DNA of 42,601 nt from Ornithinimicrobium cerasi. GTDB lineage: Bacteria; Actinomycetota; Actinomycetes; Actinomycetales; Dermatophilaceae. A program made the translations under genes and the position numbers. This document shows positions 5,579-35,302 of this stretch, in pieces; the stretch's first letter is position 1, and each line of letters opens with the position of its first letter. The notes below the pieces were generated by a model that made no database searches, was not told the origin of the DNA, and saw only the letters and a list, made by a program, of their open reading frames with translations. The stretch is from the NCBI RefSeq assembly GCF_003702705.1, contig NZ_QZMN01000016.1:1-42601 (forward strand). The letters run 5' to 3'.

Positions 5579-6067
5579 TCAGGGCCGCCGGCTCGCGGCA
5601 TCGCGAGCATTCACCAACGCCTCTTCCACCCGTGCGGGCTGGACATCCAGGGCCCGAGCTAGGGCGCGAACAACATCCGCGCCTGGTGCCCTGACGTAGC
5701 TGCCGCCTTCCCACCTCCTCAGGGTGGACGTCGACGTGCTGGCCGCAGCGGCGAGCTCTCTCAGGCTCATCCCTCGGACGACTCGCAACTCTCGTAGAGC
5801 CAGGGCCTCGAAACCGTCTCGCTGCAGCAGGTCGACGGGTTCCACCCCGAAGGCCCGCGCTATGCGCAGCAGTGTGGCCGGCCTCGGCACCGCGAGACCC
5901 CTCTCCCATGCCGAGACCGCAGCAGCGCCCCTGACGCCAACCATCATGGAGAGCGCCTGCTGCGTCCAACCGTTGCTGAGTCGCAGATCGCGCAGACGCG
6001 CGGCGCTCACCGGCACTCTCGCGTACGCAGCAGAGCTCTCGGCGGCCACGACGTCCACGCGCTGCAC
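5579..6067 (-). CDS. Transcriptional regulator with two XRE-type HTH domains
   Basis: 162 residues from a GTG at 6067. Two helix-turn-helix units stand in tandem: about 22-75 (LRDLRLSNGWTQQALSMMVG ... VSAWERG ... LLRIARAFGV) and about 87-145 (LRELRVVRGMSLRELAAAA ... LRRWEGG ... VRALARALDV). Duplicated Cro/CI-type domains in one chain suggest binding to a bipartite operator. A TATAGT hexamer at 6066-6071 overlaps the first start codon, so the true start may be the GTG at 6058, giving a leaderless mRNA. It is divergent from the excisionase-like gene, and its job may be to control the element's transfer or excision genes. Confidence 0.8.
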   Translation of the reverse strand: MQRVDVVAAESSAAYARVPVSAARLRDLRLSNGWTQQALSMMVGVRGAAAVSAWERGLAVPRPATLLRIARAFGVEPVDLLQRDGFEALALRELRVVRGMSLRELAAAASTSTSTLRRWEGGSYVRAPGADVVRALARALDVQPARVEEALVNARDAASRRP

Positions 6068-6175: not shown

Positions 6176-6388
6176 ATGAGCACTCCAGGCAGACCTGAAT
6201 CGACCCCCCGCCGACGCCTTCAATTCGAGTCGCTTACCGAAGCGGCCAGACGGACCGGCCTGAGCACCCGCACACTTCGCCGCAGGATCGCTGAAGGACG
6301 CTTGCCTGCCTACAGAGCAGGGCAGCGAGTCCTCCGGGTGAACCCCGAGGACGTAGATCGCTTGATGGTTCGCGTGCCGACGGTGTGA
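6176..6388 (+). CDS. Excisionase-type MerR-like HTH protein, 70 aa
   Basis: A small basic protein with the HTH_17 pattern LTEAARRTGLSTRTLRRRIA followed by the wing GRLPAYRAGQRVLRVNPEDV. This is the fold of recombination directionality factors and of small DNA-bending regulators of integrative elements. A GGAGG lies only one base before the ATG, too close for optimal initiation, and no other in-frame start is available downstream, so expression may be low or leaderless. It is divergent from the dual-HTH regulator. An Xis role for the nearby integrases is an inference from size, fold and location. Confidence 0.7.
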   Translation: MSTPGRPESTPRRRLQFESLTEAARRTGLSTRTLRRRIAEGRLPAYRAGQRVLRVNPEDVDRLMVRVPTV

Positions 6389-6719: not shown

Positions 6720-8483
6720 TCAAAGGGACAAGGGCCACTTGTAGTTGTGCTTTCGGCAGACGTTGTAGATGCGCAAGAAATCGGAACGCTCGTTCCAGTC
6801 TTCTGGAAGATCAACGGGCACCAGCGCAAGCGCAGAAACGATTTCAGCGGGATGGGTCTTGTCGATACCGAGCTCACGCACGATCAAGGCCTGGTAAGCC
6901 GTCATTAAACTGCGACTTGCAGGATCGACCTTTTCTGCCTTGTCTGCCGCCTCACGATATAGTCGCATTCCGCGATGAAGATCGCCATGGGCTAGATAGG
7001 CCAGTCCTAGCGTTGCGCTCAACACGTGGTTGCCCTCCACGGCTGGTTCCAATAATCGAATAGCCTCCTCAGCGCGTCCACTCATCGCAAGCACGTAAGC
7101 AGAGTTGTTTAGGAGAAGACTATCATGCGGGAAGTGGGACAGGGCGTATTCAGCTACTTTGACCGCGTCGTCCCATCGCTCCTGACCGATTCCGATGGAG
7201 ACAACGGCCGCAGCGGCAGACATGACATTCTCAGGCTCAAGTTCAAACCACTCTTCGGCAGCATAGCCAGCTGCATCGTTCTCGCCCTCAAGGACAGCGA
7301 TTCGATGCTTGAAGTATGCGCGGCGAGGCGGCGTTGTGTTATCGCCTAGTCGTGACACCGCTTGACGCAGTTTCGGGGCCTCGGATCGAAGTTGTGCAAC
7401 TTGCGCATAACTAAGCACAATGGCATCATTGTCTGTGATTTTGGAAAGTAGACCGGACAAACGGTCTAGTGCCACCCCCCGACTGATCCTGCCCATTTCA
7501 TACTTCAGGACAGACAAATTAGCTTGCACCGTTCCCTCCAAGGCCTCGTCACCTTCCCTCCGTGCCGCTGTAGCGGCCTGCTCAAGAAGGGAGACCGCTC
7601 TCGCTTTCTCGCCCGCGGCTAGAGCAATGCGAGCCCGCATCTCAAGGAGGGATCCGTCTTCTACGACACCCGACGCGTCCAGAGACGCCATCTCTGCCGT
7701 TGCCCTCGCGATATCCCCCTGTGCCAGGAGCAGCTCCAAGTAGTGCAGCGATATGTCTTTCCGCCCAGGGGCGGTGCGCGTCGCCCGTAGCGCCGCGCGC
7801 GTCGCCTTCTTCTTTGCCCCAAGGTGCCACAAAGAGATGGAAAGATTGAACAAGGAGTCCACGTCCTCTGGCGCTTCATTCACAGCGTGCCGCAGGTCGC
7901 CAACGGCGCTCTGCCAGTTTCCGGACTGTGCATGTAGGTACCCTCGGAAGGACGCCACAAGGGGACCACTGCGGCCGACCAGAGCATCCTCGGCCTCCGC
8001 GATCTCACCCATGCTGCTAGCCAGGAGCGCAAAAGTGACGGAAAGAGCATCGCTCAGGCGCGCTCCGCGAAGTGCGTCGTAGGCATACTCCGCATGTCCG
8101 CAGCGGAGCAGAACCTCTGCGGCGATTCGTGCTGAAGCTGCGTCCGAAGGATCCGTGTCTCCGTGACGGCGTTGCAGGCTCAAGTCCAGAGCCTCCCGGG
8201 CGGCGGCGACGGCCGCGTCGACTTCGTCGAGTGCGATCTGTGTTTGTGCCAAGGCGGCAAGCGTCGTGGAGGTGCGGCAGCCTTCCACCAGGCGCAGCGC
8301 CCGATCCCGTGACCGCTCTGCGTCTACGCGGCGCAAGGCAGCAAGCGACTCGTGAGCCGAGATGCCAAAGGCCCTCTCGGCAGTTCTATGCATGGGGTGG
8401 CTGCCGGCACGCCACGGGCTCACTAGCTCCGGAGTCTTCTGATCGACGGGTCGGATCTCTTCGAGTACTCCTAGACCACTCAC
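6720..8483 (-). CDS. TPR-repeat protein, third gene of the HTH-kinase-TPR operon
   Basis: 587 residues, almost wholly helical, with TPR-like A/B helix pairs from about residue 70 to 540: AALAQTQIALDEVDAAVAAA, FRGYLHAQSGNWQSAVGDLR, LFNLSISLWHLGAKKKATRA, LLNNSAYVLAMSGRAEEAIR, TLGLAYLAHGDLHRGMRLYR. No enzymatic motif, signal peptide or membrane segment is visible, so it is likely a cytoplasmic scaffold or sensor. The N-terminal 30 residues contain EIRPVDQKTPELVSPWRAG and look non-TPR. The GTG start overlaps the kinase stop (GTGA), implying coupled translation and a physical partnership with the kinase. Codon use is visibly less GC-rich than in the flanking genes, suggesting separate acquisition. 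Confidence 0.85.
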   Translation of the reverse strand: MSGLGVLEEIRPVDQKTPELVSPWRAGSHPMHRTAERAFGISAHESLAALRRVDAERSRDRALRLVEGCRTSTTLAALAQTQIALDEVDAAVAAAREALDLSLQRRHGDTDPSDAASARIAAEVLLRCGHAEYAYDALRGARLSDALSVTFALLASSMGEIAEAEDALVGRSGPLVASFRGYLHAQSGNWQSAVGDLRHAVNEAPEDVDSLFNLSISLWHLGAKKKATRAALRATRTAPGRKDISLHYLELLLAQGDIARATAEMASLDASGVVEDGSLLEMRARIALAAGEKARAVSLLEQAATAARREGDEALEGTVQANLSVLKYEMGRISRGVALDRLSGLLSKITDNDAIVLSYAQVAQLRSEAPKLRQAVSRLGDNTTPPRRAYFKHRIAVLEGENDAAGYAAEEWFELEPENVMSAAAAVVSIGIGQERWDDAVKVAEYALSHFPHDSLLLNNSAYVLAMSGRAEEAIRLLEPAVEGNHVLSATLGLAYLAHGDLHRGMRLYREAADKAEKVDPASRSLMTAYQALIVRELGIDKTHPAEIVSALALVPVDLPEDWNERSDFLRIYNVCRKHNYKWPLSL

Positions 8484-9556
8484 GATGCGCTCCTATGGGC
8501 GTTCTTGTTCGAGCGATATATTGGCCGCCGAGAACTGACATTAAGGCGGCGGCCAAGAATGTCGGCCCTTCTCAACAACCAGGCCAGCCCAGGATCAGGA
8601 GCCACACGCTTACCATGGGGTGGGCGTGGTTGACGTTGGGCCGGTACGGGGTCGCAAAGCTGTTTCAGCAGCGCAATTGACTCGTGGCGAATTACTGGTG
8701 GCAATTCGCCACCGAGCTCTTCGATGGCCCGCGAAAATCGCGGCCGCAAAGTTCCCAGGTCGCGCCTGTGGCCACTTAAGAAGTCGCGCTGGCCCTCGGA
8801 CCGGGCATCCTGCCACGAACCGACAGCCAACGCGGTCATGGGGTGACCCGTCGCTAGTTCAACCAACAGAGAGCCAAGCCCGTACAAATCTGCGTTGCGA
8901 AAGTCAGCGGCTGTACTGCCACCTTGAAACCACAGATGCTCAGGGGGTGCATAGCGAAGATCTCCGCGCCCGGAGATATATTCGATTTCCGGCAGGGAGG
9001 GAGGATTCGCAAAGTCCTTTGAACGCCCGAGATCCGCGAGGCGGACTTCACTGTTACCTTTCTGTACCATGAGCAGACAATTACTGCTCTTGAGGTCTCT
9101 ATGTGCTACCATATTCAGGTGCATTTGGTGAACGCCCTTTACTGCTCCCCTCCAGTGGTTCAGACGTTCCCCCCAAGGCAGGGCTTGTCGTCGCGTCGGA
9201 TCAACAATCAACTCTTCTAGTGCGCCTGACGCCATGGCGAGAATGTGATACTTGAAGGGAAGGGGAACGGCAACGCCATTCACCGATACGGACAACGACT
9301 CGCTGCCTGACTCAATCCAATTGATGACGCTGGTGCACCCGGAAAGTTTACACAACAACTCCCCCTCACCGTCGAACTCGGTAGCTGCTTGGGCGTCGTT
9401 ACCGGGCGTCAAGACCTTCATTGCGTACCGGCTACCGGTGCCTAAGTGCACCGCCTCAAAGACCAAGCCAAAGTGACCCTCGCCAACGCAGGCATCGAGT
9501 CTGTAGTCACCAATTACCTGGCCCGAGAGGGCTCCGACCCAGGGGCCGGCCGTCAC
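8480..9556 (-). CDS. Serine/threonine protein kinase, soluble, Hanks type
   Basis: 358 residues. Glycine loop GEGHFG (25-30), ATP-anchoring lysine in YAMKV (Lys47), catalytic loop HRDLKSSN (152-159, Asp154 and Asn159), metal-binding DLG (175-177) in place of DFG, and PPE (204-206) ahead of the F-helix region (DLYGLGSLLVELATG). All catalytic residues are present, so it should be active. The kinase core ends at about 310; the last 48 residues are basic and of unknown role. There is no transmembrane segment or PASTA domain, unlike housekeeping PknB. The GTG start overlaps the HTH gene stop and its own stop overlaps the TPR gene start, so the three genes form one tight operon. Confidence 0.88.
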   Translation of the reverse strand: MTAGPWVGALSGQVIGDYRLDACVGEGHFGLVFEAVHLGTGSRYAMKVLTPGNDAQAATEFDGEGELLCKLSGCTSVINWIESGSESLSVSVNGVAVPLPFKYHILAMASGALEELIVDPTRRQALPWGERLNHWRGAVKGVHQMHLNMVAHRDLKSSNCLLMVQKGNSEVRLADLGRSKDFANPPSLPEIEYISGRGDLRYAPPEHLWFQGGSTAADFRNADLYGLGSLLVELATGHPMTALAVGSWQDARSEGQRDFLSGHRRDLGTLRPRFSRAIEELGGELPPVIRHESIALLKQLCDPVPAQRQPRPPHGKRVAPDPGLAWLLRRADILGRRLNVSSRRPIYRSNKNAHRSAS

Positions 9557-9855
9557 TCCCTAGCCCCGCCGCCATAACGTCGTCTAAGACGATCGAGTTC
9601 TTCGGGGTGTTCTTTGAGAATTCGAATAATGTCTACGGGAACGCCACCCTGGGCGAGCGTCATGACGTCGGCAGAGACTCCGTAGTAGGCCGAGAGCCGC
9701 TCGGACAGTTCAGGCCCTAGACCCCGTTGACCACGTTCTACTCGCGACAGCTGCGAGGGGGCCACGCCAATGTCCGCCGCGGCGCTACGCAGGGAGCGTC
9801 CCTGCTCGCGGCGTAGGCTTCTTAGGAGGTTGGCGGTCGTCGGGGTCGACGTCAT
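9553..9855 (-). CDS. XRE-family HTH regulator heading the kinase-TPR operon
   Basis: 100 residues with a Cro/CI-type domain at about 7-65: LLRSLRREQGRSLRSAAADI, then GVAPSQLSRVERGQ and SERLSAYYGVSADV. The C-terminal part (IIRILKEHPEELDRLRRRYG) is a helical tail probably used for dimerisation or contact with the kinase. A perfect 10-bp inverted repeat overlies its promoter, consistent with autorepression of the whole operon. Its ATG lies about where transcription should start, so the mRNA is probably leaderless. Confidence 0.85.
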   Translation of the reverse strand: MTSTPTTANLLRSLRREQGRSLRSAAADIGVAPSQLSRVERGQRGLGPELSERLSAYYGVSADVMTLAQGGVPVDIIRILKEHPEELDRLRRRYGGGARE

Positions 9856-9861
9856 CAGATC

Positions 9862-9894
9862 AGAATACGCGGTGTTGCCATACTTGGCAACACC
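9862..9894 (-). promoter_or_regulatory. Leaderless promoter with palindromic operator of the HTH-kinase-TPR operon
   Basis: On the minus strand TTGCCA (9890-9885) and TATTCT (9867-9862) are separated by exactly 17 bp, and six bases later comes the ATG at 9855: a canonical leaderless arrangement. The inverted repeat GGTGTTGCCA (9871-9880), TACT, TGGCAACACC (9885-9894) covers the -35 box and the spacer, so a bound dimer would block RNA polymerase. The adjacent XRE protein is the obvious candidate ligand. Confidence 0.75.
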
Positions 9895-10127
9895 GTACAG
9901 GCTCCCTCACCTGCAAGCTCGGGTATGCGGAGTCGCGGCGCCGACGGGTTCCTCGTCGTGGGCGGCGCAGCAAGGCGGACGCAGCCGCTGAGGGGCGCTG
10001 TACTCGGTGTGTGAGCGATGTCCGACCCTCGCGCGTGGCCGACACCGACATATCCCGGATGAGTGCGCGCTCATCGGCGGATCCGGTCTGTCAAGCACCT
10101 CGACGACGGACGCCTTCGTACCTTGAG

Positions 10128-11255
10128 TCAGCTGGGTTGCTGGGCTTGGGCGAGGCGGGAGAGTTGCTCGGCGATGTGGGCGTCGCGGCCGAGGGCGGCG
10201 TGTTGGTAGCGGAGGGCGGCTTGGGGGGTGGAGTGGCCGATGCGGGCCATGAGTTCGGCGAGGGTGGCTCCGGTGCGGGCGGCTAGGACGGCGCCGGTGT
10301 GGCGCAGGTCGTGAATGCGCAGGTCTGGCCGGCCGGCGGCCTCTCGCGCCTTGTGCCAGTGCCGGTAGAGGGTGTTGGGGTGGACCTGGACCTCGGGGTC
10401 GGTGACCGAGGGAAAGACCAGCGCCTCGGGCGCGGGTCCGACGTGGGTGGCCAGGTGGCCGGCCAGGGTGGGGAGCAGGTGGGGTGGGATGGCCACGTCC
10501 CGCACGCCGGCGGCCGACTTGGGGGTGCCGACGGTGACCTGCCCGTTGGTGCGGACCACTCCGCGGCGTACGTGGACCACGCCGGTGGCCAGGTCCAGGT
10601 CGGCGCGGCGCAGCTCGGCCATCTCCCCGAACCGCAGACCGCACCAGGCACCCAGCAGGACCAGGGCCTGGTACCGGTCCGGCATGTGCGCCACCAGGAT
10701 CGTGAGCTGGTCCAGGGTGGCTGGTTCGACCCGGCGGGCGCGGGTGGTGGTCCCGCCGCCGCGGACCCGGCAGGGGTTCGCGGCCAGGATCTCATCGGCC
10801 ACGGCGGTGGCCAGGATCGAGCGGAGCAGGGCGTAGGCGTGGGCGCGCTGGGTGGGCCGGTGCGGGTCCAGGCCGGCGTGCCAGACCCGCACCACGGCCG
10901 GGGTGATGTCCCGCAGCGCCACGTGCTCGAACTCGGGCAGCAGGAACCGTTCCAGCAGGCGCTGGTAGAGGGCGCGGGTGCGGGGCTTGAGGTCGCGCTG
11001 GGACAACCAGGCGGCCGCGTAGGGGCCGAACGCCTCGGCGGTGCGGGCCACCTTTGCCCGCCGCGAACGTGTCGGGGACCAGGTGTCGTCCTGGATCAGG
11101 CGGCGTTCGTGGGCCAGCCACGCCTCGGCGTCGGCGCGGGTCTGGAACGTGGAAGGGGCCCGGTGGAAGTCCTGGTCCGGCCCCATGTAGAACGCCTGGT
11201 ACCGCCCGCCCGACCGGCGGCGGATGGTGCCGAAGTCACGCTTGGACCGAGTCAC
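10128..11255 (-). CDS. int: Tyrosine integrase 1
   Basis: 375 residues. The N-terminus (KRDFGTIRRRSGGRYQAFYM) is the AP2-like arm-binding domain, followed by a SAM-like core-binding domain at about 70-160. The catalytic domain carries Arg in GLRFGEM, HDLRH, GHST and the nucleophile in ALRYQH. It should integrate and excise the element; the adjacent 46-bp tRNA-proline-like sequence is the expected crossover region. It differs from integrase 2 (29293-30420) at about 21 positions by eye, so the two derive from closely related elements stacked at one target. Confidence 0.93.
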   Translation of the reverse strand: MTRSKRDFGTIRRRSGGRYQAFYMGPDQDFHRAPSTFQTRADAEAWLAHERRLIQDDTWSPTRSRRAKVARTAEAFGPYAAAWLSQRDLKPRTRALYQRLLERFLLPEFEHVALRDITPAVVRVWHAGLDPHRPTQRAHAYALLRSILATAVADEILAANPCRVRGGGTTTRARRVEPATLDQLTILVAHMPDRYQALVLLGAWCGLRFGEMAELRRADLDLATGVVHVRRGVVRTNGQVTVGTPKSAAGVRDVAIPPHLLPTLAGHLATHVGPAPEALVFPSVTDPEVQVHPNTLYRHWHKAREAAGRPDLRIHDLRHTGAVLAARTGATLAELMARIGHSTPQAALRYQHAALGRDAHIAEQLSRLAQAQQPS

Positions 11256-11392
11256 GACCCTCCTGTTCGCCGGCAGGTGGGCATAACTGGGGCATAACTG
11301 GTGTCATCTCGTGTCCTCTTGTGCCCGAACCTTTCACGCGCTACTGTACCTGTCATCGCAGGTCAGATGCTTGCGACGCAGGTCAGCCAATC

Positions 11393-11438
11393 GGTGACCG
11401 TGGCGGAGTGATCTTTTCAAATCCTGTCACCCCGACCA
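11393..11438 (+). repeat. Attachment-site repeat, copy 1 (tRNA-Pro 3'-end-like)
   Basis: 46 bp identical to 30700-30745. The last part, TTCAAATCCTGTCACCCC then GACCA, has the T-loop, T-stem and acceptor 3' strand of an actinobacterial proline tRNA gene, including CCA. The rest of a tRNA is absent, as expected for the truncated end left by integration into a tRNA gene. Confidence 0.8.
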
Positions 11439-11974: not shown

Positions 11975-12604
11975 TCACAGCGCCTCGTGCAGCTGCTCCA
12001 TGCGCTCGATCTCGGCCTCCTGGTCTGTGACGACCTGCTCGGCAAGCTCCTGCACGTCCGGGTGCTGCCCCTCGTCCAGGGCGGTCTGCGCCATGGTGAC
12101 GGCGCCGCGGTGGTGCTCAATCATCAGCTCCAGGAACCGGGCGTCGAACGCCTCACCCGACAGCCCCTCGAGCTCTGCCATGGCCTCCTCCTGGGACATC
12201 CCGTCCATCTCCATACCGCCGGAGTCCCCGTGGTCCATGCCAGCCATGTCGTCGTCGGCCGCGGTCGGCTCGCCCCACTGCTGCAGCCAGGACTGCATGA
12301 GCTCGATCTCAGGGCCCTGGGCCTGCTCGATCTGCCCGGCCAGCTCCTGCACCTCGGGCGTGACCGCCTCCTCCTGCGCCAGCTGCGCCATCTCGACTGC
12401 GCCCTCGTGGTGGACGATCATCATCTGTGCGAACATCGTGTCGGCCTCGTTGTGCTCCTGCGCCGCCTGCTCGGCATCCGTCGTGGTGGTAGCGGTCGAG
12501 CCGCCGCCGCCTGCGGGTTCGGTCGAGTCGCCGCAGGCGGCGAGGAAGGCGGTGACGGCCAGGGCGGCGGTCGCGAGGCGCAGGCGGGGGGTGATGATCA
12601 TCAT
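11975..12604 (-). CDS. DUF305 lipoprotein, copper-associated
   Basis: Starting at the ATG at 12604 gives 209 residues with a lipoprotein signal (LAVTAFLAAC, Cys24), a Thr/Gly-rich spacer and two DUF305 half-repeats: MFAQMMIVHHEGAVEMAQ (His65-His66) and FLELMIEHHRGAVTMAQ (His164-His165). Between them is a Met/His-rich loop MAGMDHGDSGGMEMDGM typical of copper-binding exported proteins. DUF305 proteins are four-helix, ferritin-like bundles that often accompany copper efflux genes; binding extracytoplasmic copper is the likely role. A CTTCATC-type direct repeat lies about 80 bases upstream, so it probably responds to the island's two-component system. Confidence 0.85.
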   Translation of the reverse strand: MMIITPRLRLATAALAVTAFLAACGDSTEPAGGGGSTATTTTDAEQAAQEHNEADTMFAQMMIVHHEGAVEMAQLAQEEAVTPEVQELAGQIEQAQGPEIELMQSWLQQWGEPTAADDDMAGMDHGDSGGMEMDGMSQEEAMAELEGLSGEAFDARFLELMIEHHRGAVTMAQTALDEGQHPDVQELAEQVVTDQEAEIERMEQLHEAL

Positions 12605-12684
12605 CGGGGACAGCTCCAGGGGTCGGGGACGGTGCTCAACGAGTAAACGTTGTCGCACGGTGCGGTTCCACCTGAGAGGGGGCC

Positions 12685-16635: not shown

Positions 16636-16713
16636 ACCCGAGGCGTGGGTGAGGGCAGAGCGGCCGCCCCTGTCCAGGGGGTCGGGCACCTAGTCACGAG
16701 GAAACCTCCCGAC

Positions 16714-16752
16714 CTTCATCGAAACTTCACCGATCCCGTCAGATCTTCATCG
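16714..16752 (+). promoter_or_regulatory. Direct-repeat boxes upstream of the copper ATPase
   Basis: CTTCATCGAAA (16714-16724) then CTTCACCG (16725-16732), followed by a further AGATCTTCATCG (16741-16752). The first pair has the exact 11-bp period of an OmpR-family response-regulator site. Confidence 0.55.
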
Positions 16753-16800
16753 CCGTGCCGGCCTGGTTCGGGACATCGCCGGTGTTGTCTACCACGAGAG

Positions 16801-16823
16801 GCCATACCCCACGAGGGTATGGC
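16801..16823 (+). promoter_or_regulatory. CsoR-type operator of the copper ATPase gene
   Basis: GCCATACCC (16801-16809), CACGA, GGGTATGGC (16815-16823): a perfect 9-bp inverted repeat with the TACCC...GGGTA core typical of CsoR operators in actinomycetes. It lies 47 bases before the ATPase ATG, and the CsoR gene is encoded just downstream. Confidence 0.75.
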
Positions 16824-16869
16824 GGCGACCCGGAACTGCCGGGCCGCGCACCGATGGAGGTGGGGTCAC

Positions 16870-19665
16870 ATGACCGTCAACGATGGACTGATCGTCCTGG
16901 TCGCTGCTGTGCTGACCGCTTTGCTCGGCTGGTACTTCTTCGGGCCGAAGAAGTCCCGGCAGGCCGACCTGGAGGACGGGGTGCAGGTCGTGCGGGTGGG
17001 GGTCAGGGGGGGCTACAGCCCGGACCTCGTCGAGGTCCGGGCCGGGGTCCCGGTCCGGATGCTCTTCGACCGTCAGGAGACCGGGGAGTGCACCTCCCGG
17101 GTGGTGATCCCGGGCTTCCGTATCAACCAGCTGCTGCCCGCCCACGAGACGACCGCCGTGGAGTTCCTCCCGGAGGCCGAGGGCGACTACCGCTTCGCCT
17201 GCGGCATGAACATGGTCAACGGCACGGTCAGGGTCGTCGGCGGCCGCACCGAGGCCCCCCCCGCCGCCGTACCGGCCGCCACCCTGACGGCCGAACCACC
17301 CGCAGGCCACCGTCACGGGCAGTCGGACCCTCCCCTCCCCGGCAGCGACACCGACCGGGCCGACCGGGGCCGGTCCTGGCAGACTGCGTCGTCGGTGAAC
17401 GGCCTGGGCGACGATGCCGAGGCGCGCGAGCGGGCGGCGGAGCTCAAGGACCTCACCGGCCGCGTGGTGCTCGGCACGGTCCTGTCGCTGCCGGTCGTCG
17501 CAGCGGTCATGCTCGAGGAGGTGTTCGGCCTGCACTGGATGCCGGACGCCCTGATGAACCCGTGGGTCCAGCTGGCGCTCATCACCCCGGTGTTCCTCCT
17601 CACCGGGTGGCCCATCCACAAGACCGGATGGCTGGCGCTGTCCCACCGCACCGCCGACATGAACTCCCTGATCACGCTGGGCACGATCGCCGCGTTCGGG
17701 TACAGCCTGCTCGTCACGCTCACGCCGCAGCTGCTGCCTGAGCAGGCGCGGTCCGTCTACTACGAGGCGGTCGGGGTGATCATCACCCTGATCCTGCTCG
17801 GCCGGCTGCTGGAGACGAAGGCGAAGGCCGGCACCGGTGAGGCGATCCGCGCGCTGATCGGGCTGCAACCCCGCACCGCCCGGGTCGTGCGCGAGGGGAC
17901 CGAGCTCGAGGTCCCCGTCGAGGCGGTCGTCCTCGGCGACGTCCTGGTGGTCCGCCCCGGTGAGAAGCTGCCCGTCGACGGGCAGGTGCAGGACGGCACC
18001 TCCGCCGTGGACGAGTCCATGGTCACCGGCGAGCCGATCCCGGTCACCAAGAGTTCAGGGGACAGCGTGATCGGGGCCACCATCAACCAGACCGGCTCCT
18101 TCCGGTACACCGCCACCCGGGTCGGCGCCGAGACCCTGCTGGCCCAGATCATCAAGCTCGTGCGGGAGGCCCAAGGGTCCAGGGCACCGATCCAACGCCT
18201 GGTGGACAAGGTCTCCAGCTACTTCGTCCCCGCCGTGATCGGCGTGGCAATCTGGACCTTCGTCGCCTGGGCCCTGTTCGGCCCCCAACCGGCAGCGGTC
18301 CTCGCGCTCGTGGCTGCCGTGTCGGTGCTCATCATCGCCTGCCCGTGCGCCCTCGGCCTGGCCACACCCATGTCCATCACCGTCGGCACCGGCAAGGGCG
18401 CCACCCACGGCATCCTCATCCGCTCCGCCGAGGCGCTGGAGACCGCGCACAAGCTCGACACCGTCGTCCTGGACAAGACCGGCACCATCACCAAGGGCGC
18501 CCCCGCCCTGACCGACGTGCTCCCGGCCGAAGGCATGGGCAGAGACGAACTGCTGCGCCTCGTCGCGGCCGTCGAACGCTCCTCGGAGCACCCGCTGGCC
18601 ACCGCGATCGTGGCCGGCGCCCAGGAGGAAGGGCTGGAGCTGCCGGAGGCCACCGCGTTCGACTCGGTGACCGGGCAGGGCGTGCGCGCGCTGGTCGAGG
18701 GCCGCGAGGTGCTCGTCGGCAACCACCGCCTCCTCGCCACAGCCGGCATCCACGCCGCACCCGCCGACGTCGACCGGCTCGCCGCGGACGGCAAGACCCC
18801 CATGCTGGCCGTCGTCGACGGCCGCTTCGCCGGCGTCATCGGTGTCGCGGACACCCTCAAGGACGGTTCCGCGGCCGCGGTCGCCGCGCTGCGGGCCCGG
18901 GGCATCGACGTCGTCATGATGACAGGAGACAACGCCGCCACCGCGGCTGCGATCGCCCGCCAGGTCGGCATCGGCCGGGTCGTGGCCGAGGTCATGCCCG
19001 AGCACAAGGCCGCCGAGGTCCAGCGCCTGCAGGCCGAGGGCCGTGTCGTGGGGATGGTCGGCGACGGCATCAACGACGCCCCCGCCCTGGCGCAGGCCGA
19101 CGTCGGCTCGGCCATCGGCACCGGCACCGACGTCGCCATCGAGTCCTCCGACATCACGCTGGTCTCCGGGTCCCTGTCCGGGCTGGTCACCGCTGTCGAC
19201 CTGTCACGGGCCACGATGCGCAACATCCGCCAAAACCTGGTCTTCGCGTTCCTCTACAACGGCCTGGGCATCCCCGTCGCCGCCGGCGTGCTGTACCCGG
19301 CCCTGGGCTGGATGCTCAGCCCCATCATCGCCGCCGCCGCGATGGCGTTGTCCTCGCTGTCGGTGGTGGCGAACGCCAACCGCCTGCGGACGTTCACCCC
19401 GCGGGGCGTCCCGGAGGTCACACAGACCCTCGCCACCGAACCGGTGGTCGAGGTCGGGCATGGACCTGAGCAGGACAAGAGCAAGGAGACCTCAATGTCC
19501 CAGACCCCGAACCGCGTCACCGACCCCGTCTGCGGGATGAGCATCGACCCCGACACGGCCGCCGACCACACCCAGCACGAGGGTCTGACCTACCACTTCT
19601 GCTCGGCCCACTGCGCGGCCACCTTCGCCCAGGACCCGACGCGCTACGCCCCCACGGGAGCCTGA
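16870..19665 (+). CDS. copA: Copper P1B-type ATPase with cupredoxin-like and YHS domains
   Basis: 931 residues from the ATG at 16870, which has GGAGG nine bases upstream. A membrane anchor (about 6-24) leads into a cupredoxin-like domain (about 35-120) containing [16 protein letters not shown] and [13 protein letters not shown] His-bearing linker follows, then the ATPase: CPC metal motif (491-493), phosphorylated Asp in DKTGT (535-539), the SEHP motif, MTGD and GDGINDAPA (731-739). Residues about 882-929 form a YHS domain ([10 protein letters not shown] ... YHFCSAHC). CPC with YN and MxxS in the last helices indicates copper(I) efflux. There is no N-terminal CxxC domain; the cupredoxin-like and YHS domains presumably replace it. 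A good internal ribosome site precedes the YHS domain. Confidence 0.93.
19495..19665 (+). CDS. Possible separately initiated YHS-domain peptide within copA
   Basis: AAGGAG at 19483-19488 followed six bases later by an in-frame ATG (19495, codon 876 of the ATPase gene) could start a 56-residue product beginning [15 protein letters not shown] and ending [10 protein letters not shown]. It would be a free YHS metal-binding protein with Cys pairs CGM and FCSAHC, acting as a copper chaperone or buffer, like the short product made from copA in E. coli by a different mechanism. Alternatively it reflects a recent fusion of two genes that kept the old start. No protein evidence is available here. Confidence 0.4.
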
Positions 19666-29292: not shown

Positions 29293-30420
29293 TCAGGGGT
29301 GCGGCTGGTTCTGGGCGAGTTGGGAGAGTTGGGTGGCGATGTGGGCGTCGCGGCCGAGGGCGGCGTGCTGGTAGCGGAGGGCGGCTTGGGGGGTGGAGTG
29401 GCCGATGCGGGCCATGAGCTCGGCGAGGGTGGCTCCGGTGCGGGCGGCCAGGACGGCGCCGGTGTGGCGCAGGTCGTGGATGCGCAGGTCGGGCCGGCCG
29501 GCGGCCTGTCGGGCCTTGTGCCAGTGCCGGTAGAGGGTGTTGGGGTGGACCTGAACGTCGGGGTCGGTGACGGAGGGGAACACCAGGGCCTGCGGGTGGG
29601 GTGCGACGTGCTCCACCAGGTGATCGGCCAGGGCGGGCAGCAGGTGGGGAGGGATGGCCACGTCCCGCACGCCGGCGGCCGACTTGGGGGTGCCCACGGA
29701 GACCTGCCCGTTGGTGCGGACCACCCCCCGGCGCACGTGCACCACGCCGGTGGCCAGGTCCAGGTCGGCGCGGCGCAGCTCGGCCATCTCCCCGAACCGC
29801 AGCCCGCACCAGGCACCGAGCAGCACCAGGGCCTGGTACCGGGCCGGCATGTGCGCCACCAGGACGGTGAGCTGGTCCAGGGTGGCCGGTTCGACCCGGC
29901 GGGCCCGGGTGGTGGCCCCGGCGCCGCGGACCCGGCAGGGGTTGGCGGCCAGGATCTCATCGGCCACGGCGGTGGCCAGGATCGAGCGGAGCAGGGCGTA
30001 GGCGTGGGCGCGTTGGGTGGGCCGGTGCGGGTCGAGGCCGGCGTGCCAGACCCGCACCACGGCCGGGGTGATGTCCCGCAGCGCCACGTGCTCGAACTCG
30101 GGAAGCAGGAACCGCTCCAGCAGCCGTTGGTAGAGAGCGCGGGTGCGCGGCTTGAGGTCGCGCTGGGACAACCAGGCGGCCGCGTAGGGTCCGAACGCCT
30201 CGGCGGTGCGGGCCACCTTGGCCCGCCGCGAACGGGTCGGGGACCAGGTGTCGTCCTGGATCAGGCGACGCTCGTGAGCCAGCCACGCCTCGGCGTCGGC
30301 CCGGGTCTGGAACGTCGAGGGGGCCCGGTGGAAGTCCTGGTCCGGGCCCATGTAGAACGCCTGGTACCGCCCGCCCGAGCGGCGCCGGATCGTCCCGAAG
30401 TCACGCTTGGTGCGTGTCAT
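29293..30420 (-). CDS. int: Tyrosine integrase 2, at the island's right end
   Basis: 375 residues, same length as integrase 1 and about 94% identical by eye. All catalytic residues are kept: GLRFGEM, HDLRHTGAVLAA, IGHSTPQ, ALRYQHA. Differences cluster in three places: after the core-binding domain, in the segment LPALADHLVEHVAPHPQ, and in the last eight residues. The leader region, arm repeats and att core upstream are also duplicated. It is the natural recombinase for the 19.3-kb island whose right end it occupies. Confidence 0.93.
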   Translation of the reverse strand: MTRTKRDFGTIRRRSGGRYQAFYMGPDQDFHRAPSTFQTRADAEAWLAHERRLIQDDTWSPTRSRRAKVARTAEAFGPYAAAWLSQRDLKPRTRALYQRLLERFLLPEFEHVALRDITPAVVRVWHAGLDPHRPTQRAHAYALLRSILATAVADEILAANPCRVRGAGATTRARRVEPATLDQLTVLVAHMPARYQALVLLGAWCGLRFGEMAELRRADLDLATGVVHVRRGVVRTNGQVSVGTPKSAAGVRDVAIPPHLLPALADHLVEHVAPHPQALVFPSVTDPDVQVHPNTLYRHWHKARQAAGRPDLRIHDLRHTGAVLAARTGATLAELMARIGHSTPQAALRYQHAALGRDAHIATQLSQLAQNQPHP

Positions 30421-30585
30421 GGCCCCTCCCCCGGCGCTGAGTCGTGGAACCGGCCACGCCTGGGCTCAACAGGAGTCATCTCGTTTCCGCTCGTGTCCAC
30501 CCTGACGGCGCCCGCTCACGCCCGGCCGGGAGAGTGTCGCCCACCCGACGCGGGTACCGGGCGTGAACCCCGCGAGGGCGATCTT

Positions 30586-30693
30586 GGGCATAACTGGGGC
30601 ATAACTGGTGTCACCTCGTGTCCTCTTGTGCCCGAAGCTGTCCCGCGCTACTGTACCCGTCATCGCAGGTCAGGTGCTTGCGGTGCAGGTCAG
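30586..30693. repeat. Probable integrase arm-type sites at att copy 2
   Basis: GGGCATAACTG twice head to tail (30586-30596, 30597-30607) and CGCAGGTCAG/TGCAGGTCAG (30664-30673, 30684-30693) 20 bp apart, in the same order and spacing as at copy 1. Confidence 0.55.
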
Positions 30694-30699
30694 CCGGTC

Positions 30700-30745
30700 G
30701 GTGACCGTGGCGGAGTGATCTTTTCAAATCCTGTCACCCCGACCA
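30700..30745 (+). repeat. Attachment-site repeat, copy 2 (tRNA-Pro 3'-end-like)
   Basis: 46 bp identical to 11393-11438, in the same orientation and the same position relative to an integrase. Recombination between the two copies would release a circle of about 19.3 kb. Confidence 0.8.
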
Positions 30746-31202: not shown

Positions 31203-34200
31203 ATGACGTTGCACAAGCTCGCCGCCGGCAGCGGGTACACGTACCTGACGAAGCAGGTCGCTGCCCACGACGCCACCGAGAGCCGGCAGGCCGGCCTCGC
31301 CAGCTACTACGAGGAGAAGGCGAGGCACCAGGTCGGTGGCTCGGCACCGGCCTCGCCGGGCTCGACCTGGCCGCGGGCGAGGTCGTCACCGAGGAGCAGA
31401 TGCGGCTGCTGTTCGGGCAGGGCCGCCACCCCCGCTCCGCCGAGCCGGAGGCCATCGCGCGCGGGTGGGGTGCCTTGGGACGGGCGTTCTCGACCTTCGA
31501 CGCCACGACCCTGCGGCAGGTGACGGCGCGGGCCTTCAGCGAGCACAACACCTCCCGCGGGTTGGCGTGGAACGCACCGATCCTGGCGGAGCAGCGGGCG
31601 GCGATCCGCACCCAGGTCGCCCGGGAGTTGTTCGAGCAGCGGCACGGCCGCGCACCGGTGGACGAGGCCGAGCTGACGAGGTTCGTCGCGAAGGCGTCGC
31701 GGCCGGCGCAGGTGCCGGTGGCGGGGTTCGACCTGACGTTCTCGCCTGTGAAGTCGGTCTCGGCACTGTGGGCCCTGGCGCCGGCCGAGGTCGCCGCGCA
31801 GGTGGAGGCCGCCCACCGGGACGCGGTCCGCGCGACGCTGGCGATGCTCGAGCGTGAGGTCGCGTTCACCCGGGTCGGCAAGGGAGGCATCCGCCAGGTA
31901 CACGTCACCGGGCTCATCGCGGCGGCATTCGACCACCGTGACTCGCGCACCGGGGACCCGGATCTGCACACCCATGTTGTCGTCTCCAACAAGGTCCAGT
32001 CCCTGCCCGAGGAGGGCGGACGGTGGCTGACGCTGGACGGGCGGATGCTCTTCAAGGCCAAGGTGATGGCGTCTGAGCACTACAACACCCACCTCGAAGC
32101 CGGGCTCGTCGAGCGGCTCGGTGTCCGGTTCAGCGAGCGTCCTTCACCGGAGGGCAAGCGGGCGGTGCGGGAGATCGAGGGGGTCGACCCGGCGCTGCTG
32201 GCCGCGTGGTCGTCGCGGCGGCAGGCGATCGAGACCCGGCAGGACGAGCTCGCCGCCACCTTCCGGGCCGACCACGGCCGTACCCCCACCACCATCGAGT
32301 CCCTCGCCCTGGCGCAGCAGGCCAACCTGGAGACCCGCCCGGACAAGCACGAACCCCGCTCGGAGGGCGAACAACGCCAGACCTGGCGGGCGCAGGCCAC
32401 GTCAGTGCTCGCCCGCGACGGACGCAGCCCGGAGGAGATGGTCGCCAGTGCGGTAGGGGCGGGGTGGAGACGCACCCGGGAGCCCAGCAAAGACGTGGGC
32501 ATCGTCGCAGGTCAGGAGGTGGAGACGTTCCAGGGACGCATACCTGCTCTCAGGGGTGGGGGCGTGCGCCCCCAGCTCCTCGCCGCCCGCGTCGTGAAGG
32601 TGCTGGAGGGGTCGCGGGCGACGTGGCAGGTGTGGCACGTGCGCGCAGAGACGCTGCGCCAGCTCCGCACCGCCCAGGTGCCCCCGGCCCGGTTCGAGGA
32701 GCACGCGCGTGAGGTCGAGCGGTGGGTCCTGCAGGGCTTCTCGGTGCCCGTCGGGGTGCCACCGCAGCTGGGCGAACCGGCGGTGCTGCGCCGCCCGGAC
32801 GGACAGTCCGCCCACATCGTGCACGGCAGCCAGGCCTACACGTCCAAGGCGATCCTGGCAGCCGAGGACGAACTCCTCGCCCTGGGGCTGCACCGCGACG
32901 GACGTCAAGCCACCGAGCACGTGGTCGAGACCGTCCTGACCGCCCAGAGCGCGGACGCTCCGAGCCTGGACCGGTCACAGACGGCGATGGTCCGCACCCT
33001 CGCGAGCAGCGGGTGCCGCCTCCAGGTCTGCCTCGCCCCGGCCGGCGCGGGCAAGACTGCCGCTCTGCGGGTGCTGGCCCGGGCCTGGGAGGCTTCCGGT
33101 GGCACCGTCCTGGGTCTGGCGCCCACCGCGGTCGCGGCCGAGGAGCTGGGCCGCGTCACCGGTATTCGTGCCGACACCCTCGCCAAGTACCTCCACCAGA
33201 CCACCGAGGGCGGAGTGGTCGGCCCGGGGACGTTGGTGCTGATCGACGAGGCCGGCATGGCCGGCACCCGTGACTTGGCGGCCGTGGCACGTCAGGTCGT
33301 GGACGCCGGCGGCAGTGTGCGGCTGGTCGGGGACGACCAGCAGCTGTCCGCCGTGGCCGCCGGCGGGATCTTCCGTGACCTGGCGGAGCAGGGCCAAGCC
33401 CACGGCACCACCGCGACCCTGACCGAGCTGCACCGGTTCACCGACCCCGCTGAAGGCGCCGCTACCCTCGGCGTCCGCGATGGTGACCCCGCCGCGCTGG
33501 ATCACTACCTGGACCACGGCCGCATCCACGCCGGCGACACCGGCGACGTGATCGAGGCGGCGTACGCCGCCTGGGCGGCCGACCAACGCGAAGGGCTGTC
33601 CAGCCTGCTGCTGGCCGCGACCCGCGACACCGTGCGCGAGCTGAACCAGCGCGCCCGGGCCGACCGCCTCGAGTCCACCGGGCAGCCGCCCGGGCGCGAG
33701 GTGACCCTGTGCGACGGCACCCGAGCCAGCGCCGGGGACACCGTGATCACCCGCCGTAACGACCGCAGTCTGCGCGCCGGCGACGGGTCCTGGGTCAAGA
33801 ACGGCGACCGATGGCACGTCCTGGAAGCCCATCCTGACGGAAGCCTCTTGGTGGAGCGCCACCGCGATGGCGACAGGAAGCGGCCTCACGTCACCCTGCC
33901 GACGGCGTACGTGACCGAGAATGTGCAGCTCGGGTACGCCAGCACCATCCACGGCGCGCAGGGCGCGACCGTCGACACCACCCACACCGTCCTCACCGGG
34001 GTAGAGACCCGGCAGGGCCTCTATGTCGCGCTCTCCCGCGGGCGTCAGTCCAACCATCTCTATCTCGCCGCGCCTACTGCCTCGTTGGACGGTGTCGCGC
34101 CCGAGGTACAGGACACAGTCGTGGAGCCGCGGGAGCTGCTCACCGACATCCTCGCCCGCGACGGCCGCGCCCTGTCCGCCAGACTGTGGAGCGTGGCGAC

Positions 34201-34968
34201 GCGGCTCAGCTGCTACGGCAGGCGGTGCTGGCCTACCAGGACGCCCTACCGGTCCTGGCCCAGCAGCACCTCGGACACGAGCGCATGGCCGCGCTGGACG
34301 ACGCCCTCGAGCGGTGGATCCCCGGCCTCACCGAGCAACCGGCCTACCCGCACCTGCGGGGCCAGCTCGCGCTGCGCTGGGTCGACGGCACACCACCGCA
34401 GCAGGTGGTCGAAGAGGCGACCTGGTACCGCGGCACCCAATCGCTCACCGAGGCCGACGACCCCGCCGCCGCCCTCGCCTGGCGGGTCGCGGGCACCACC
34501 CCGCCGTCCCACCGGGACGCACCCCTGCCCTGGCTGCCCGACGTCCCGTCGGCGCTCCGGCAGGACGCGGGCACGAGCGACTACCTCGACCGGCTCACCC
34601 AGCGGATCGACGACCGCAAGGACCGCGTCGCCGACGAAGCCCGGCGCGCGGGCACCTCCGACCGGGTGCCCTGGCAACGCAGACTCCCCCCGCACGTCGA
34701 CGGCCAGCTCGTGGGCGACCTCGCCATCTGGCGCGCCGCCCACGACATCCCACCCACGGAGCCGAGCCCGACGGGGCCGCCGACCAAAGAACCCCAGGCA
34801 GCCAGGCACCAGTCTCGGCTCATCCGCCGACTGGCAGTACCGTCACCCGTCTCCTCCACGGCCACCGCAGACGCCGCCAGCGACAGGCTCCGAGCCAGCC
34901 AACGACAGGCAGACCGTCAACGTCTCTATGACGGTGCCACCCGCCACCTCTCTGGTCCGTCGCGATGA
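31203..34968 (+). pseudogene. MobF-type relaxase-helicase (TraA-like), two frameshifts
   Basis: The ATG at 31203 starts MTLHKLAAGSGYTYLTKQV and reaches SYYEEK, the relaxase tyrosine region. One missing base at about 31318-31323 shifts the frame; the next frame continues EAPGRWLGTGLAG and carries the metal-binding HTH in DPDLHTHVVVSNK, then the helicase with Walker A APAGAGKTAAL and Walker B VLIDEAGMAG, to RELLTDILARDGRAL. A second one-base loss at about 34180-34184 shifts into VERGDAAQLLRQAVLAYQ and a C-terminal domain ending ATRHLSGPSR. If both bases were restored the protein would be about 1255 residues, normal for MobF. As read it cannot make a complete relaxase. Confidence 0.82.
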
Positions 34969-35302
34969 CCAAAGAGTCCAGCGCAAGAACCCGGAACCGC
35001 ACGGTCGATACATCGCTGTACCGCCGAGTACAGCGCGTTGCGTCGGACGCCCAGACGCCTGATAGGCAGACGAGTTGGTGGGTACGCAGGCGACGCCGCC
35101 GCACCCACAGAAATGCGCCGAACTGGCTGAGCAGATCCTCGCCTGTCACGCGAAAGACGTTGCCCGAGACGAGAGAGTCCTTCAAACACTGGAAACCGAG
35201 TGCCTAGGACGACGCGATCGGGTGGGGATGACGGGCGGCTGCACTCAGTTCGAGGCCGAACGCGGTCGACGCCGCCACCGCCGCATGAGGTTGCCCAACT
35301 TA
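34969..35302. other. Stretch without a gene
   Basis: Between the relaxase end and the convergent hypothetical gene I see no supported frame, terminator or repeat. Confidence 0.4.

Follow-up and report, generated by a model that had tools for sequence, protein, structure and literature searches.

A conserved XRE-kinase-TPR operon of actinobacteria and its likeness to the phage defense candidate PDC-M71

Described kinase systems and the trio

The closest described relative of the operon analyzed here is PDC-M71 of PADLOC-DB, where PDC stands for phage defense candidate (PMC11514479). This entry consists of a kinase model (M71A) and a TPR-like model (M71B). The operon lies on the minus strand, at 6720 to 9855, of the 42,601-nt contig NZ_QZMN01000016.1 of Ornithinimicrobium cerasi (assembly GCF_003702705.1), which as a whole is called the window and is numbered on its forward strand. 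It comprises genes for an XRE-type regulator, a protein kinase, and a TPR protein, in this order, and it shares with PDC-M71 a two-gene core in which the kinase precedes the TPR protein. We lean toward considering this trio a mobile, self-regulated signaling cassette with a core homologous to PDC-M71, in which a TPR sensor and a kinase effector probably act in phage defense.

Other known kinases resemble the trio in part. In HipBA and HipBST, a helix-turn-helix (HTH) gene is followed by a kinase gene and there is autoregulation. The trio shares the HTH gene ahead of the kinase gene and, by prediction, the autoregulation, but differs in its kinase, which belongs to PF00069 (1.5e-24) and matched no HipA family in Pfam at a cutoff of 0.1, and in having a TPR protein as third component. 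Stk2 and PD-T4-6 are defense-library kinases whose models the trio kinases match; these matches are confined to the kinase domain, and that of the window kinase to Stk2 is weak (6.7e-7, residues 130 to 239). PknG, an actinobacterial kinase, acts together with a TPR domain, for which a role in linking the detection of signals with phosphorylation of the substrate has been proposed in actinobacteria (PMC8546545). PknG is one chain, whereas the kinase and the TPR protein of the trio are in separate frames in 16/16 loci and the trio is sporadic and mobile. For the other parts of PknG, Pfam, the only resource searched for them, gave no further domain in the window kinase.

All 15 trio kinases compared matched M71A (best 2.7e-32) and all 16 trio TPR proteins matched M71B models (best 1.2e-24), which were the sole PADLOC families they matched at 1e-3. 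The window kinase scored 1.2e-24 (85 bits, residues 59 to 309) against a model that gives no family cutoff, and the best stretch of the window TPR protein covered residues 403 to 553 only (52 bits). An Arthrobacter plasmid carries a full-length PDC-M71 pair (kinase against M71A, 3e-98, 327 bits, residues 6 to 347; TPR protein against M71B, 5.6e-110, 366 bits, residues 7 to 476), with an adjoining gene that matches PDC-S02. Plasmids of Rhizobium and Deinococcus encode M71A-like kinases with an adjacent downstream gene, whose products match TPR models and are 31% and 35% identical to the Arthrobacter M71B protein. The window kinase is 26 to 32% identical to the three plasmid kinases over 213 to 303 residues, and the window TPR protein 27 to 31% identical to their TPR partners over 116 to 143 residues. 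The catalytic loop reads R-D in 15/15 trio kinases and HQD or HND in the three plasmid kinases.

The window XRE protein matched no PDC-M71 model, and no XRE gene was annotated directly upstream of the three plasmid pairs in the PLSDB gene tables, which are incomplete. The genes found there encode a divergent hypothetical protein in Arthrobacter, a histidine kinase in Deinococcus, and a MarR-type HTH protein in Rhizobium (PF12802, 3.6e-8). The Rhizobium etli plasmid locus (L083, 3570 to 6684), where the pair stands behind this MarR-type gene and an integrase lies beside it on the other strand, combines the kinase-TPR core with an HTH regulator of another type. By these comparisons the trio is best seen as a sister branch of PDC-M71 with its own XRE regulator. 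The initial annotation had not recognized the set as a described system, a statement that has to be revised, since the kinase and the TPR protein match the PADLOC-DB candidate, though as a distant branch only. Full-text literature searches, with most subscription papers and bioRxiv outside their scope, returned no paper describing the trio by title or abstract. A search for PDC-M71B in 396 genomes of the phylum at E ≤ 1e-15 gave no hit and says little, as this limit also shuts out the window copy (8.7e-15) and no control genome was detected.

Proteins, conservation, and promoter of the trio

Each neighboring pair of genes in the window shares 4 bases. The XRE gene (9553..9855, minus strand) encodes a regulator of 100 amino acids (Pfam HTH_3, 9.1e-12), 38 to 71% identical to the XRE proteins of the 15 other members described below. 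The kinase gene (8480..9556, minus strand), whose GTG start overlaps the XRE stop, encodes a soluble Hanks-type protein kinase of 358 amino acids (Pfam Pkinase, 1.5e-24), and the third gene (6720..8483, minus strand), whose GTG start overlaps the kinase stop, a TPR solenoid of 587 amino acids (several Pfam TPR families, TPR_2 at 6.1e-13). One kinase gene, that of locus L021, is interrupted and was left out of the alignment and the tree, giving 15 kinases. K47, E64, R153-D154, K156, N159, and D175 are invariant in all of them, and the set expected of a Hanks-type kinase, namely, the catalytic Lys, the Glu, the catalytic-loop Asp and Asn, and the metal-binding Asp, is present as K47, E64, D154, N159, and D175. 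The DFG motif reads DLG. A Thr is usual at the P+1-loop position of Ser/Thr kinases, where it is a sign of Ser/Thr specificity; the trio kinases lack it, and their sequence does not fix the type of residue phosphorylated. In its place, ahead of the APE-like motif, 15/15 aligned kinases have an invariant Asp (D199).

The AlphaFold2 model of the kinase had a mean predicted local distance difference test score (pLDDT) of 90.1. Among solved structures, eukaryotic kinases were found in the best 60 of 1,100 rows of the sequence search and in the best 50 of 2,000 rows of the fold search. The TPR protein was modeled with a mean pLDDT of 86.7 and is helical from residue 43 onward, while residues 1 to 41 (pLDDT < 50) are predicted to be disordered. 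With this model, the top 50 Foldseek rows were helical-repeat scaffolds such as OGT and subunits of APC/C, which are TPR proteins, and neither these rows nor Pfam revealed an enzymatic domain. No membrane-like segment was found in the trio proteins, the highest 19-residue Kyte-Doolittle mean being 1.23 for both the kinase and the TPR protein. The initial annotation had described three genes overlapping end to start by 4 bases, a kinase with all catalytic residues and no membrane anchor, and an all-helical scaffold without an enzymatic domain, and these descriptions agree with the coordinates, the alignment, and the models. A conserved phosphosite in the disordered N-terminal tail of the TPR protein was considered and dropped: several members share a PVRPG-like stretch, but not the Ser/Thr following it.

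The trio is rare. At E ≤ 1e-30, the kinase profile found 4/394 genomes of the class, including the source genome, and the XRE (E ≤ 1e-12) and TPR (E ≤ 1e-30) profiles found exactly the same four, once each; up to 5 kinase, 12 XRE, and 3 TPR candidates were scored per genome, so that lone diverged copies could escape. A TPR search of 98 genomes, including the source genome, gave three positives: the window, an intact copy in a genome of the same genus (G023), and a fragmentary one (G056). The fragment, at 9516 to 9761 of its locus (L015), matches the C-terminal tail of that protein at 53% identity and lies alone within an open reading frame of 177 codons. A scan of a genome collection, seeded with five aligned kinases, based on short patterns, and ended at 100 stretches, was not exhaustive and recovered at least 58 loci with a sharp gap between 13 at E ≤ 3e-48 (L016 to L028) and 45 other kinases at E ≥ 5e-17. 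Two of the 13 come from genomes of the panels (L023 is G023 and L025 is G358), and it is on this match that the same-genus status of L023 rests.

In total, we obtained 16 distinct members (the window, L011, L013, and L016 to L028), and XRE, kinase, and TPR genes follow each other in the same order in all 16. Their hosts include Mycobacterium, Myceligenerans, Agromyces, Nocardioides, Aeromicrobium, Asanoa, Actinoplanes, Umezawaea, Cellulomonas, and Ornithinicoccus, as well as a Propionibacteriaceae bin, an Acidimicrobiaceae bin, and Solirubrobacter. The genes at related loci were called with our own open reading frame script; their junctions range from -14 to +27 nt, with larger overlaps in L011, L020, and L024, where starts are those of the longest frames. 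A single TPR match per genome was found in the 15 member genomes searched whole. The pairwise identities of the XRE, kinase, and TPR proteins of 15 members are correlated (Mantel test; 0 of 5,000 permutations as high, for each pair). In Nocardioides soli (L021, 8327 to 10759), a transposase-like gene with an rve domain breaks the kinase gene, and the XRE and TPR genes are still open. By gene order and correlated identities, the trio is a conserved, co-inherited unit spread among distant actinobacteria, which bears out the earlier view of one operon under an XRE-type regulator. The two outcomes named beforehand as speaking against this view, homologs never seen together as a trio and a chromosomal housekeeping pair in related genomes, were not what we found, with 16/16 members complete and only 4/394 class genomes positive.

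The promoter is conserved along with the genes. In the window, a predicted operator, the inverted repeat CGGTGTTGCCA-AGTA-TGGCAACACCG (9870..9895; perfect arms of 11 bp and a 4-bp spacer), is embedded in the promoter found by the promoter scan: the predicted -35 element TTGCCA (9885..9890, minus strand) lies within the left operator arm and is separated by 17 nt from the predicted -10 element TATTCT (9862..9867, minus strand), which ends 6 nt ahead of the XRE ATG. The initial annotation had placed a perfect palindrome over the -35 element and the spacer, correctly, but gave its length as 10 bp instead of 11. Taken from one window, the palindrome and the promoter match are weak evidence: the window has 2 palindromes with arms of at least 11 bp and 5 with arms of at least 10 bp, where Markov-simulated windows average 0.5 and 1.4, respectively, and one promoter-like match was found in the region against 0.9 expected. 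The weight comes from conservation in 16/16 members. All carry an inverted repeat TTGNC-N5..7-GNCAA that begins 34 to 36 nt ahead of the XRE start, contains the -35 element in its left arm, and is followed after 17 to 18 nt by a TAnnnT -10 element ending 5 to 7 nt before the start codon. The half-sites TTGCC and GGCAA are exact in 13/16 members (mostly TTGCC-N6-GGCAA); L019, L024, and L028 differ. In L024 both are altered symmetrically, to TTGTC and GACAA, and the XRE helix reads GHLSR, where 14/16 members have SQLSR or SHLSR.

The motif, a pattern defined after the sequences had been viewed, occurs in 129/32,000 stretches of 60 nt drawn at random from these loci (true sites kept) and at 4/246 other gene starts. 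In 4/16 loci (L013, L020, L026, and L028) the XRE start was picked anew with knowledge of the motif; in the remaining 12 it is the earliest start of the frame. The 12.6-kb Arthrobacter locus lacks the motif on the scanned strand. The exact 16-base operator core occurs once in the whole source genome. Allowing up to three mismatches, the window contains 14 hits where 10.2 would be expected, and the 13 besides the operator itself each have three mismatches. Because the exact core is found once and the other hits are so distant, the XRE protein most likely controls its own operon only. With the -35 element inside one arm of the conserved repeat, XRE binding there would block the operon, and the protein is accordingly predicted to be an autorepressor. 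Since the start codon is situated close to the expected transcription start, the trio mRNA is predicted to be leaderless (see PMC8485053, on tuberculosis).

Mobility and genomic surroundings

The module has a guanine-plus-cytosine (GC) content of 0.594, against 0.699 in the flanks, and the trio is lower in GC than its flanks in 16/16 members. A tyrosine integrase (10128..11255, minus strand; Phage_integrase, 2.3e-14) lies just upstream, about 0.3 kb off and outside the module, and an excisionase-type HTH gene (6176..6388, plus strand; TIGR01764 excise 2.4e-10, HTH_17 3.6e-9) lies downstream; both point to a mobile context. The lower GC content and the adjacent integrase had already been remarked on in the initial annotation. 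The 16 member genomes gave 156 integrase matches over 91 Mb. An integrase is found within 5 kb of the trio in at least 6/16 loci (the window, L013, L018, L021, L027, and L028) against 0.25 expected, and within 1 kb in 4/16 against 0.06 expected; these limits were chosen post hoc, integrases cluster, and flank lengths were entered by hand, which makes the P values rough. The L021 integrase is a profile match at C2:1214125-1214679 of its genome (G483). In a tree of the concatenated proteins (15 rows), where branches are long and an outgroup is lacking, the window and Mycobacterium hubeiense form a pair (support, 96/94), and a clade of the window with the same-genus locus L023 is rejected (approximately unbiased test; p-AU = 6.6e-51). 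Sporadic occurrence, low GC, association with integrases, and discordance with taxonomy mark the trio as horizontally mobile and, in line with the initial annotation, as resembling cargo.

A second tyrosine integrase of the contig, closely similar to the first, lies at 29293 to 30420. A 300-nt repeat (91% identity) starts at the stop codons of both integrases, with the trio just past the stop of the first copy, and another repeat (94%) lies upstream of them (11278-11438 and 30585-30745). A TrwC-type relaxase/helicase (31400 to 35062; PF08751, 3e-71) indicates that the contig carries conjugative or mobilizable DNA. Elsewhere there are a P-type ATPase with cupredoxin and YHS domains (16645 to 19665), probably metal-related cargo, a DUF305 gene (11975 to 12658), and, near the trio, a second regulator, an XRE protein with two tandem HTH_3 domains (5579 to 6067).

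Part of the loci have neighbors of a defense type. These matched RT_UG32 in L011 (PADLOC, 3e-225), AbiEii in L013 (4.9e-40), a type I restriction-like helicase in L018 (REase_I, 1.4e-42), a type IV methyl-directed restriction endonuclease in L023 (mREase_IV, E = 0), and an AriA/Old-like ATPase in L028 (AriA 2.4e-19, Old 5e-19); L026 has Fic and PIN proteins nearby. The UG32-type reverse transcriptase of L011 (4886 to 6571) carries an N-terminal excisionase-type HTH_17 domain and lies about 0.5 kb downstream of the trio. The AAA neighbor in L016 (6132 to 8552) is an AAA_16 protein of 806 amino acids with a GC content of 0.53.

Possible function of the cassette

In the mechanism that we propose for the mobile signaling cassette, an XRE dimer would bind the half-sites around the -35 element and repress the operon, which would be expressed at a low level. 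The TPR protein may be a sensor or an adaptor that restrains the kinase or recruits its substrate. Binding of a putative ligand, a phage or plasmid product, by the TPR solenoid would then release, direct, or switch on the kinase, and phosphorylation of a putative substrate, a host or phage protein, would halt phage growth, probably via cell arrest. A more specific form of this idea, which is tentative and rather doubtful, makes the trio an undescribed mobile immune class. In it, the TPR protein would sense a phage component and activate a soluble kinase with a rebuilt P+1 loop, the portable, leaderless, self-repressed XRE promoter would co-evolve with the half-sites, and PDC-M71 would be an XRE-free relative. 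Such co-evolution is suggested by L024, in which both half-sites are altered together with residues of the XRE helix.

A number of observations weigh against a defense role and against the link to PDC-M71. The family has no reported phage phenotype, and the defense role is inferred, as are XRE binding and repression, sensing with its ligand, the substrate, and the outcome. The window kinase matches mad6 (6.2e-28) better than PDC-M71A (1.2e-24), PD-T4-6 models fit the kinase family about as well as M71A, and the name PDC-M71 appears in no paper of the literature searched. Searches of phage records and IMG/VR viral contigs did not recover the kinase, a plasmid search with it gave the distant Arthrobacter kinase only, and the window TPR protein was not found in plasmids. 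The 20 neighbors scanned were picked by eye, with no control set and none from L020, L024, or L025. Among them, the NB-ARC-TPR neighbor in L022 and the AAA neighbor in L016 match no PADLOC model, and at L017 and L019 no defense or integrase neighbor was seen. Moreover, the fragmentary copy in G056 retains the TPR tail only (83 residues), with no kinase or XRE gene within the surrounding 19 kb. As to the scope of these scans, one of the 20 neighbors is the L021 insert, and 7 were rescanned against PADLOC together with 3 Arthrobacter plasmid proteins; the Arthrobacter TPR protein was not found in phages, nor the Arthrobacter kinase in viral contigs.

The trio could instead be a tripartite toxin-antitoxin system, working for addiction or element stability and not for phage defense. 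In that case the kinase would be a toxin that arrests growth, the TPR protein would inhibit it, and the XRE protein would be an autoregulating repressor of the antitoxin type. HipBA and HipBST are the model for this explanation, and the HTH gene placed before the kinase, the predicted autoregulatory operator, the mobile context, and the L021 locus, where the kinase is interrupted and the XRE and TPR genes stay open, all suit it. We nevertheless think it unlikely: the kinase belongs to PF00069 and gave no hit to a HipA family in Pfam, and a TPR solenoid of 587 amino acids is larger than usual antitoxins. For the biology on which this explanation draws, we also refer to the tuberculosis study cited above for leaderless transcripts (PMC8485053). 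The trio might also be a host metabolic or developmental signaling pair, a split analog of PknG whose TPR protein couples a nutrient signal to the kinase. The coupling role proposed for the TPR domain of PknG (PMC8546545) would fit two halves that here are separate overlapping genes, but the occurrence in 4/394 genomes of the class and, by TPR, in 3/98 relatives (one a fragment; both counts include the source genome), the low GC, and a tree that departs from taxonomy make it very improbable, and we rejected housekeeping as the principal explanation for its sporadic, non-vertical distribution.

The least probable account is that of an integrative element's own regulator, with the XRE protein controlling the integrase or excisionase and the kinase and TPR protein relaying an SOS-like signal. 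The integrase 0.3 kb away, the excisionase-type HTH on the other side, and the 4/16 loci with an integrase within 1 kb speak for such a role. It is weakened by the presence of the exact operator core at a single place in the genome, the XRE promoter, and by the near matches in the window, all at three mismatches; furthermore, among the matches listed, 10/16 loci have no integrase within 5 kb, though some contigs end sooner.

With the mobile signaling cassette as the preferred reading, what had been a bare database entry, a kinase gene and a TPR gene carried as a phage defense candidate, becomes a defined unit open to testing: its regulator is conserved, its predicted operator has a known sequence and position, and members can be named from many families of actinobacteria. 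Should the defense role prove true, the trio would add to bacterial immunity a kinase-based signaling system with its own TPR sensor, and it would be a clear example of a defense cassette that carries its own switch.

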